NCBI GenBank assembly: GCA_963922205.1 | Contig: CAWUHX010000015.1 | Span: forward strand, 744,001 to 808,000 | DNA: 64,000 nucleotides | Direction of reading: 5' to 3' | From: Romanomermis culicivorax | Taxonomy: Eukaryota > Nematoda > Enoplea > Mermithida > Mermithidae | Part shown: positions 61,212 to 63,857 of the stretch, one piece after another | How the letters are laid out: every line of letters starts with the position of its first letter | Position numbering within the stretch: position 1 is the stretch's first letter | Translations under genes and position numbers: made by a program | The notes under the pieces: generated by a model | Database searches by the model: none | What the model saw: the letters and a program-made list of their open reading frames with translations, nothing else | What the model was told of the DNA's origin: nothing

Positions 61212-63857
61212 ATGAGTGAACACTTACAAATCACGTTTGTACAGTTGTTTTTGATAATAAAATTTACCTTGGTAGCATCACTGTTTCTAGGGGTGAGTTT
61301 GTCAGCACCGGCGGCTCAGTATCAATTTTGCGGTCTCTCAAGAAGCGGACATCCACTTGAGTTACCCCGGCATGTAGAGTGTAAACCACCGCAATCTTCA
61401 TGGAGCCCGCGGCGCATGAATGTTACGGTGTATGTCCCTAGTTCAGACCCGATTACAACCACAGCGTGGAAATGCACATTGCGCTCCCACAAAGTCTGCA
61501 CCAACACTGGTTTCTTCTGCTCTAGGGGCATCACTGCAGACGTCATTACCACTCAGCACTTAGCGCCTGCGGCATGCACGCTAGCACATCGCACTAAGAT
61601 TTTTGGTTCACAAAAACTTGTCGGCATTCGCCCTGGCTTTTATAGCACAAACCAAACATTGGAAGTGATGTACGAATGGTGTTGCAGCGACGTCTGCAAG
61701 ACAGTGACTAACCTCTTCATCGAGGAGGGACAAGTCGCTTCGTGGGACGGCACTACGGCCCTAAGCACCTTAGGCGATGAAGGTGGATGCTGTCCTACTG
61801 CAGGTCAGTGCACTACCCTAGACGGGGTCATTGTCTGGCCTGCACAAAACTTCACGGCACGGTGTCATCATCACCCCAAGGGAAATTACACTGCGTCCAT
61901 GTCAGGGAACCACGTCATCATCGATGATCTACAGGTTGCCCTCAAGATCCCGAGAAACTCCGGCGTCTTCCAACTGTGCCCAGAACTACGTTCCACCACA
62001 GTCCGGACGGATCAGGGTCTTCTCCTTCGCATCCACGGGAGATACAATTTGACCCAAAACTTGTTCAAATTAGCAAAGGACACACCTCCTGACCCTGTCA
62101 ATGCCAAATTGAACTACCTGGCTCAGCAGATCAAGGAATCGGAAATTAACGGTTTCCGGTTCATGTGGCTTGAGCTCTGCTCTCACGCTCAACGCTATCT
62201 TGACCTGACTTGGCAGTTGCTTCGCTTCGACCCTACCTTGGGTGCCCGGGCATTCCTCCAGAGGAATGACCTGACGGCGGAATTCACAGGCGACGCACTG
62301 ACAATATGGCCGTGTCAGAAGGTCAACGCCACCTACGTCTACCACTCGTACCGGGTGGGAAACGTTTGCTACAAGTACTTACCTGTACAGGTCGGCGGTA
62401 CCGTCTACTTCGCCACCCCCGGTGGTCCAGATCTCATTAAATCTAGCCCAATTGTGCTGTGTCATCACCACTTTACAGGGATTTTCCGAAATCGCTCGGG
62501 CTGGTTTACTGAGTCTGGCGGGGTCCATGTGAGCCACATCCCACTGGAACTCTTCTGGAAGCAGCGTTTCAACATCACTCACTTTGAGGCACCGGCGCTC
62601 TTCCATGACCAGTTGGCGATGACCCCTTCAAACTTTGCCTTCTTTAAACAGTACGTTTACAAGACTGAGCAAATTGAAGCGGTATTCAACCGGCTGGTAA
62701 ACTTTACCGCTGGTCTATCCCTGCAACCAGACGCCATTTACCAGGCCTTTGCAGGGGTAGGAACCGACATCAAGGCCTCGCTGGAAGGTGTCGGTTTGGC
62801 AGCAAACCATGTTATTACGGGTCAACAACACACCCTCGCCCAGGGCTTGCATGCTGTCCTGAGCGGGCCGGTCCAGTTGATCTTTAACATCCTAATTACC
62901 CTGACAGTGCTGATCGGTGTCCGATACCTTGCCTACCTTGGTGTATCTTATTATCTCAGCTACCGTCTGCAGAGCAAACAGGTCAGGTTTGTTAGCCGTT
63001 TCTCCCCGTTGGGTCTTTACCGCAAAGTACAATGCTGGATCGGTTTTCACTACGTGCAAAACAATGTGCCCTCCCAGCTTGACGGAATCACACCGTGTTT
63101 CGTCGTGCTGCTGGATACCAAGGAAACTCCTGCTTTCCTTGACATGGGTTGCCCCCGCACTATCATTAGCCAACGTCTTCATAAGGCCTTGGCTAAAGAA
63201 AGTCGGAAGGCGGTCATGGCGTTCCAGCAACATCACGACTTTAACCCATTGATGAGCATCAATGGTAAAGCCGTTCATACCATCCTTTCGGGACCATATG
63301 AAATCATGTTGCTCGGAAACCGCCAGCCGAACACACGGATCGATATACATCTCCATGTGTGCAAGACTACGTCTCCCTTCTGGGCACCTGTTGACCTCAT
63401 ACTCGGACTGGACTTCTTAGAACAGTTCAAGAACATTATGTTTAACTACCAACGTAATGTTTGTCGGCTGGACGCGGTAGAATTACCCCTCCTGCTGACC
63501 ACGCCGGAGATTGACCAGATCGACCCCTGGTGGGAGAACACCCGTGCTCTCTCGCCAAACTCAGACAGGTCGGGATCACGATCACGGTCCAGGACTTCGT
63601 CCATCTCTTGGCCACACTCACGGGCCTCCTCAGTTGCCTCATCACGTGGGTCAACCAGGGGATCCCGGGCCTCTTCTAGACGGGCAGGTCGTCATTTGTC
63701 GACCTTGCACGGGTCAGGTTGCCCTCGACCTCCGCCTGGAAACTCTCCAGTCACGCTAGAGATAGGCCGATACCGTGAGCCAAGTGATTCAGATGCTCCG
63801 GCATCACCCGTGCCAAATGCGCCACCGCTATCGGACACCAAGATTGAATCACTATGA
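61212..63857 (+). CDS. Env-like glycoprotein fused to a retropepsin-like domain
   Basis: The ATG at 61212 is in the gag frame and begins a typical signal peptide (hydrophobic core LFLIIKFTLVASLFLG, cleavage near SAPA). The ectodomain runs to about 62870, is rich in Cys and has about ten N-x-S/T sequons. A long membrane segment lies at about 62872-62960. The cytoplasmic part then contains an aspartic-protease-like domain: hydrophobic strand, D-M-G at 63141-63149, and LILGLDFL about 86 residues later. An Arg/Ser-rich tail ends at TGA 63855-63857. The glycoprotein family is not settled; a class III (gB/chuvirus-like) type is possible but only a guess. The frame upstream is open to 59721, so it could also be read as part of a longer polyprotein. 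Confidence 0.7.
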   Translation: MSEHLQITFVQLFLIIKFTLVASLFLGVSLSAPAAQYQFCGLSRSGHPLELPRHVECKPPQSSWSPRRMNVTVYVPSSDPITTTAWKCTLRSHKVCTNTGFFCSRGITADVITTQHLAPAACTLAHRTKIFGSQKLVGIRPGFYSTNQTLEVMYEWCCSDVCKTVTNLFIEEGQVASWDGTTALSTLGDEGGCCPTAGQCTTLDGVIVWPAQNFTARCHHHPKGNYTASMSGNHVIIDDLQVALKIPRNSGVFQLCPELRSTTVRTDQGLLLRIHGRYNLTQNLFKLAKDTPPDPVNAKLNYLAQQIKESEINGFRFMWLELCSHAQRYLDLTWQLLRFDPTLGARAFLQRNDLTAEFTGDALTIWPCQKVNATYVYHSYRVGNVCYKYLPVQVGGTVYFATPGGPDLIKSSPIVLCHHHFTGIFRNRSGWFTESGGVHVSHIPLELFWKQRFNITHFEAPALFHDQLAMTPSNFAFFKQYVYKTEQIEAVFNRLVNFTAGLSLQPDAIYQAFAGVGTDIKASLEGVGLAANHVITGQQHTLAQGLHAVLSGPVQLIFNILITLTVLIGVRYLAYLGVSYYLSYRLQSKQVRFVSRFSPLGLYRKVQCWIGFHYVQNNVPSQLDGITPCFVVLLDTKETPAFLDMGCPRTIISQRLHKALAKESRKAVMAFQQHHDFNPLMSINGKAVHTILSGPYEIMLLGNRQPNTRIDIHLHVCKTTSPFWAPVDLILGLDFLEQFKNIMFNYQRNVCRLDAVELPLLLTTPEIDQIDPWWENTRALSPNSDRSGSRSRSRTSSISWPHSRASSVASSRGSTRGSRASSRRAGRHLSTLHGSGCPRPPPGNSPVTLEIGRYREPSDSDAPASPVPNAPPLSDTKIESL
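63060..63480 (+). CDS. Retropepsin-like domain with D-M-G active-site triplet
   Basis: Part of the ORF ending at 63857. The strand FVVLLDTKETPAFLDMG and the later ILG follow the retropepsin plan, but the usual D-T/S-G has Met in the second position, which may lower or abolish activity. Confidence 0.6.

Follow-up and report, generated by a model that had tools for sequence, protein, structure and literature searches.

A stretch of 64,000 nucleotides from the mermithid nematode Romanomermis culicivorax (contig CAWUHX010000015.1, positions 744,001 to 808,000; hereafter "the window", numbered from its first letter) ends in an element that we read, with a probability of about 0.6, as the 5′ part of a Ty3/gypsy-type long terminal repeat (LTR) retroelement, in which a captured fusogen of the Monjiviricetes type lies between gag and the protease (PR), in frame with the latter, and which would encode a membrane-anchored Env-Pol precursor. 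The architecture is well supported by comparison with two related predicted proteins, P0001 and P0002, and from it we infer how the enzymes might be tethered to the membrane and packaged. The order observed is gag-glycoprotein (G)-PR in the window, G-PR-reverse transcriptase (RT)-RNase H (RH) in P0001 and gag-G in P0002, so that the G-PR fusion occurs in two of the three sequences and gag precedes G in two of the three.

A glycoprotein joined to a protease-like domain

A first-pass annotation of the window had proposed that gag is followed by a single open reading frame (ORF) in which a glycoprotein precedes a protease-like domain, and this was borne out by the length of the frame (881 codons), by Pfam, by hydropathy and by alignment with P0001. 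The signal peptide and membrane segment that it had described were recovered as well, both from hydropathy. The encoded protein is laid out as a signal-like segment, an ectodomain, one membrane segment, a degenerate retropepsin-like stretch and an Arg/Ser-rich tail, with the following features:

61212..63857, plus strand: glycoprotein-protease (G-PR) ORF, 881 amino acids (aa), ATG at 61212 and stop TGA at 63855-63857
61245..61301, plus strand: signal-peptide-like hydrophobic segment, residues 12-30 (hydropathy)
62097..62513, plus strand: core of the Monjiviricetes_fusion match, residues 296-434 (Pfam E=2.7e-13 for 61212-62985)
62847..62945, plus strand: membrane segment, residues ~546-578 (hydropathy; lines up with those of P0001 and P0002)
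63075..63479, plus strand: retropepsin-like domain, with D-M-G at 63141-63149 and ILGLDFL at 63399-63419 (match to the P0001 protease)
63480..63857, plus strand: Arg/Ser-rich tail and stop, where codon usage has no preference for frame 0

Over the six frames of 58601-64000, the longest stop-free run reaches 1378 codons, against a maximum of 311 and a mean of 180 in 300 first-order Markov simulations. The nine N-glycosylation sequons of the ectodomain (residues 70-497) all lie between the signal-like and the membrane segment, and 16 of its 18 Cys residues are invariant across the window protein, P0001 and P0002. When searched against Pfam, the ORF matches Monjiviricetes_fusion (PF24664) with E=1.2e-12 and 47.1 bits, above the cut-off of 27, and the same family is found in P0001 (E=4.8e-17) and in P0002 (E=1.2e-11); Borna disease virus G gave a sub-threshold match (E=0.0032). 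NCBIfam returned no match for the ORF and none above cut-off for three further proteins.

A profile of the three sequences weakly matches, in its G part, herpesvirus glycoprotein B (gB) in the PDB, through 8y48 (E=0.014), 9jli (E=0.38) and 9cu4 (E=0.004), the last of which is labelled only ORF8 in the match list and is taken by us to be gB; the alignment to 9cu4 spans a stretch with a common G-D-A and a Cys after it. Among the best 60 of the 206 PDB matches of P0001, gB does not appear. On these comparisons, the glycoprotein is likely, if not proven, to be a gB-like class III fusogen. A class I or class II envelope is disfavored by the weak gB matches together with the lack of a furin-like R-X-K/R-R site in the window ORF, P0001 and P0002.

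The retropepsin-like domain of the first-pass annotation stands as far as its alignment goes: the stretch aligns with the protease of P0001 (BLASTP E=9e-5; local score of 60, where 200 shuffles reached no more than 43, z=8.0) and keeps the second retropepsin motif, ILGLDFL. It does not stand at the active site or in searches with this stretch alone, to which we return below.

Codon-usage scores were trained on gag and G-PR themselves, so that within these two they are circular and carry information only elsewhere; in G-PR they depart from frame 0 after ~63.55 kb. Downstream of the protease-like domain, frame 2 holds an open stretch of 54 codons with a hydrophobic run (63515-63676), which has no Pfam match, would be open by chance with a probability of ~0.045 and is preferred over frame 0 in one codon-usage window. 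Frame 0 is open again after TGA 63855 up to the end of the analyzed DNA (63858-64000, 47 codons), which may be due to chance or may be the start of the next part.

Related elements

The homology search with the window ORF scored 7999 candidates and yielded two relatives, P0001 and P0002, which are predicted proteins from JGI and ENA contigs. P0001 (1424 aa; 33% identity over 82% of the query) carries in one frame, and in this order, the fusogen domain (residues 272-437), an aspartic protease (635-726), an RT (RVT_1, 968-1128) and an RNase H (1191-1318), and the best PDB match of its RT is the RT of Ty3 (E=1.3e-80). P0002 (1186 aa; 32% identity over 70% of the query) combines in one frame a gag with CCHC knuckle and the glycoprotein behind it. 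A membrane segment is present at the corresponding place in all three proteins. Over the ectodomain (window residues 40-580), identity amounts to 39.0% between the window protein and P0001, 34.6% between the window protein and P0002 and 35.2% between P0001 and P0002, and at such values (35-39%) the three are clearly separate elements.

The placement of env upstream of RT, also part of the first-pass annotation, thus applies to P0001, with its order glycoprotein-protease-RT-RNase H, and the window itself has no RT within its range. Further elements of like order were found only in part, since neither P0001 nor P0002 holds the whole order. A search with residues 1-600 of P0001 (7995 candidates) returned P0001 itself only, and one with profile A2 (7999 candidates) recovered P0001 and not P0002; because these queries missed known relatives, the sensitivity of the protein search is limited. 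Four scans over viral contigs and two over contigs of prokaryote genomes confirmed no relative, and they say little about animals.

Gag and the reading frames up to the glycoprotein

Upstream of the glycoprotein, three stretches can be told apart:

58641..59720, plus strand: gag ORF, ending in TGA (59718-59720) within a CCHC zinc knuckle (knuckle pattern read from the sequence)
59721..60390, plus strand: continuation of the gag frame past the TGA, with a second Cys/His cluster and no Pfam family above cut-off
60392..61183, plus strand: open stretch of 263 codons in frame 2, with stop TGA at 61181-61183, overlapping the open frame 0; no Pfam family

Gag matches the Pfam family Ty3_capsid just below its curated cut-off (E=1.9e-6; 27.9 bits, cut-off 29.1) and is homologous to the gag of P0002 (23% identity, E=2e-12). 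In P0002 the knuckle has the form CX2CX4HX4C, and in the window the first CCHC knuckle of gag is interrupted by the TGA. This stop codon and an apparent frame change near 60.4 kb are features that the first-pass annotation did not contain. The frame change is indicated by codon usage at 60400-61030, where frame 2 scores best in seven of eight windows of the score, and the frame 2 stretch is probably an extension of gag; its stop (61183) precedes the ATG of the glycoprotein by 28 nt. Frame 0, in which gag and G-PR are both written, contains TGA 59718 as its single stop in 58641-63854 and is stop-free over 59721-63854. The stop and the frame change may reflect damage to this copy, or else the element employs read-through of the stop together with a change of frame.

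A proposed membrane-anchored Env-Pol precursor

According to the reading we prefer, the signal peptide would send the ectodomain into the endoplasmic reticulum and the single membrane segment would halt transfer, with the protease and any downstream Pol remaining on the cytosolic face. Env-Pol would in that case be made as a precursor anchored in the membrane; it would encounter Gag where particles bud and replace the usual Gag-Pol fusion as the means of packaging the enzymes, which dimerization of the protease during assembly would set free. Translation of G-PR in the window copy would begin at a separate ATG (61212), shortly past the point where the frame 2 gag extension stops. In P0002-like elements, where gag and G share one frame, an internal signal peptide might let signal peptidase release Gag; alphaviruses likewise have capsid and glycoproteins in one precursor.

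A more far-reaching proposal, which we put forward tentatively and at clearly less than even odds, is that in an old and distinct Ty3-type lineage Env and Pol have become a single membrane protein, in which the tail of the fusogen carries protease and polymerase and thereby couples entry to enzyme packaging.

Weighing the evidence

Several observations weigh against the Env-Pol reading. No single sequence holds the whole order, and gag-G-PR-RT-RH is assembled from three sources: P0001, as called, has neither a signal-like segment nor gag in its frame, and the frame of P0002 stops ~90 residues past the membrane segment, without a protease. The topology assigned to the signal-like and membrane segments comes from hydropathy only. 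With respect to the fusogen, a PDB search with the window ORF alone gave no match up to E=1, gB included, P0002 alone does not find gB in the PDB, and structure predictions were of such low confidence (mean pLDDT 30.7 and 32.4) that they were unusable. With respect to the protease, the active site reads D-M-G instead of the canonical D-T/S-G (D-S-G in P0001), and this part alone remained under the Pfam cut-off (gag-asp_proteas, E=0.28) and had no protease among its PDB matches up to E=10. The PR part of the three-sequence profile does match proteases of the DDI1 type (best E=0.0014), a match that owes much to P0001. Alignment A3 is poor at its ends.

The gene order may be real and the fusion nonetheless serve only to express env from genomic RNA, if the precursor is cleaved directly behind the membrane segment or if ribosomes re-initiate. 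The ~45 residues that part the membrane segment from the protease in the window, and the longer linker of P0001, leave room for a cut, and the frame of P0002 finishes soon past the membrane segment. The frame of P0001, however, is unbroken from G to RNase H, and its use would necessarily yield the fused precursor; we consider this explanation unlikely. About equally improbable in our view is a single frame 0 polyprotein of gag, linker, G and PR, in which TGA 59718 is read through or private to this copy and frame 2 (60.4-61.2 kb) is overprinted or off-frame. Such a polyprotein agrees with the one stop of frame 0 and with the gag-G fusion of P0002, and also with the openness of frame 0 through the 263-codon overlap, where 3.7-7.1 stops would be expected and where the probability that frame 0 stays open under the constraint of the frame 2 protein is 2.1e-4 for the codon usage of the element, 6.8e-4 for pooled usage and 0.011 for the stretch's own. 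Calibration of off-frame stop counts gave, as observed/expected values in three rows, 10/12.1, 21/17.5, 4/5.5, 11/10.7, 18/11.0 and 11/12.0. The weight of this openness is lowered, because the overlap was picked after it had been seen and a 24-nt repeat (60874-60951) lengthens the open run in both frames. Codon usage at 60.4-61.1 kb, in favor of frame 2, is moreover contrary to a single frame 0 polyprotein, and a stop that splits a zinc knuckle would be an odd site for programmed read-through.

There is nearly an even chance that the window copy is a decayed remnant from this lineage, without a working product. The in-frame TGA in gag, the apparent frame change near 60.4 kb, the D-M-G of the protease and the codon usage off frame 0 past ~63.55 kb all point that way, against which stand a G-PR frame open over 881 codons and the conservation of 16 of the 18 ectodomain Cys residues. 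The joining of a glycoprotein to a retroelement by misassembly or by a one-off local rearrangement, the alternative named in the first-pass annotation, is by contrast very improbable and was rejected. It could draw on the presence of one copy only, at the end of the window and nowhere else in it, but parts of the order recur on other contigs: P0001 and P0002, 33 and 32% identical to the window ORF, repeat G-PR and gag-G, respectively, and P0001 does so with glycoprotein, protease, RT and RNase H in one frame.

Extent of the element and its setting

The Ty3/gypsy-type element seems to coincide with a GC-richer block of ~10 kb that runs from ~53.8 kb to the end of the window, with a GC content of 0.48-0.54 in 2-kb bins compared to 0.32-0.42 before it; in a finer profile, values rise from 0.23-0.41 before ~53.8 kb to 0.44-0.58 after. 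On this basis, one further feature was assigned:

53760..58640, plus strand: 5′ portion, presumably LTR and leader (GC step)

In the ~4.9 kb ahead of gag no gene was recognized; ORFs were listed there (up to 112 aa on the plus strand from 55 kb), and no family search of them was made. A repeat search found no LTR-like pair in 53000-64000, as expected if the 3′ end of the element lies outside the window, which stops at 64000; RT, RNase H, integrase (IN) and the 3′ LTR would lie 3′ of that point. No primer binding site was found in a comparison with the one tRNA of the window (Thr), in which at best 12 of 18 positions matched, and BLASTN found no second copy of the GC-richer block in the rest of the window.

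An inverted repeat with 27-nt arms, 74% complementary, is located at 53765-53899, at the GC step with which the element seems to begin. Upstream of gag, at 56143-56768, there are repeats with a TGACGTC-type core, many at a spacing of 65 nt, which include eight of the nine copies of family D1; they are absent from the arrays called by the tandem repeat finder, and may be regulatory.

The host part of the window contains a tRNA-Thr (TGT) gene (15128-15201), a dispersed repeat family whose members share up to 96% identity and occur in either orientation (16521-16950, 20301-20752, 44794-45242 and 51024-51411), a hAT transposase dimerization domain on the minus strand (33155-33673, E=4.4e-10) and an exon-like ORF of a host gene with FAD_binding_4 (43591-44049, E=1e-20), which presumably belongs to an alkylglycerone-phosphate synthase.

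Comparison with known elements and implications

The order differs from that of Ty3/gypsy elements (gag-PR-RT-RH-IN), as the glycoprotein sits between gag and the protease, and from the retroviral gag-pol-env, as G lies ahead of the protease in the window and ahead of protease, RT and RNase H in P0001; a second env after pol is possible. In gypsy, the envelope is located downstream of pol. Roo, Tas and Cer-7 encode an envelope-like protein behind the polyprotein (PMC7642597), in Rous sarcoma virus and murine leukemia virus env comes after pol (PMC10309623), and Troyka elements are described as lacking an envelope (PMC12440569). A search of the open-access literature, with most subscription papers outside its scope, returned no description of an env between gag and the protease.

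The closest likeness in terms of the glycoprotein is Anakin, a mosquito LTR element that has likewise captured a glycoprotein of the chuvirus kind (PMC7642597). The backbone of Anakin is BEL/Pao and that of the window element is of the Ty3 type: gag is nearest to Ty3_capsid and the RT of P0001 is nearest to Ty3 among solved structures, in a comparison where BEL/Pao was represented by Pfam profiles only. A later survey reports no clear evidence that Gypsy or Copia elements captured a glycoprotein of the Jingchuvirales; among its entries are two insertions in nematodes with a relationship to Charybdivirus (PMC10084718). Atlas virus of hookworms (Belpaoviridae) has Env in one frame with Pol, as in P0001, in the order Gag-Pol-Env with a class II phlebovirus-like envelope last (PMC9094657), whereas the window element has G before the protease.

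Acquired envelopes are also known from the errantivirus gypsy and from rotifer TelKA (PMC12440569, PMC5408684), Ty3/gypsy-type or LTR elements like the present one; TelKA carries a paramyxovirus-F-like envelope, and, unlike G in the window element, its ORF3 is discussed as being downstream of pol (PMC5408684). Cer1 of Caenorhabditis elegans is a Ty3/gypsy element with an extra large protein, as here, but its additional ORF lies between pol and the 3′ LTR, and the product, CERV, is nuclear and not a glycoprotein (PMC10309623). The insect sORF2 proteins provide another case of a membrane fusogen-like protein in Metaviridae that is not always encoded after pol; they differ in being short (63-107 residues), in being located upstream of gag, or after pol in 7 of 22 lepidopteran consensus sequences, and in not being fused to the protease (PMC11952523). 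Foamy viruses resemble the proposed Env-Pol scheme in that their Pol does not arise by fusion to Gag; in contrast to that scheme, it is translated from its own spliced mRNA and packaged via Gag and the genome RNA, and Env is separate (PMC7828637).

We group the element described here with the env-bearing Ty3/gypsy-type elements, and the family of Monjiviricetes-type fusogens is now found on a Ty3-type backbone. An envelope placed within the gag-pol unit and fused to the protease would mean that env capture is possible at another site, and it makes the packaging of Pol through a fusogen testable. If the more far-reaching proposal of a merged Env and Pol holds, it would add a third way of packaging Pol, next to its fusion with Gag and to the route that foamy viruses take.

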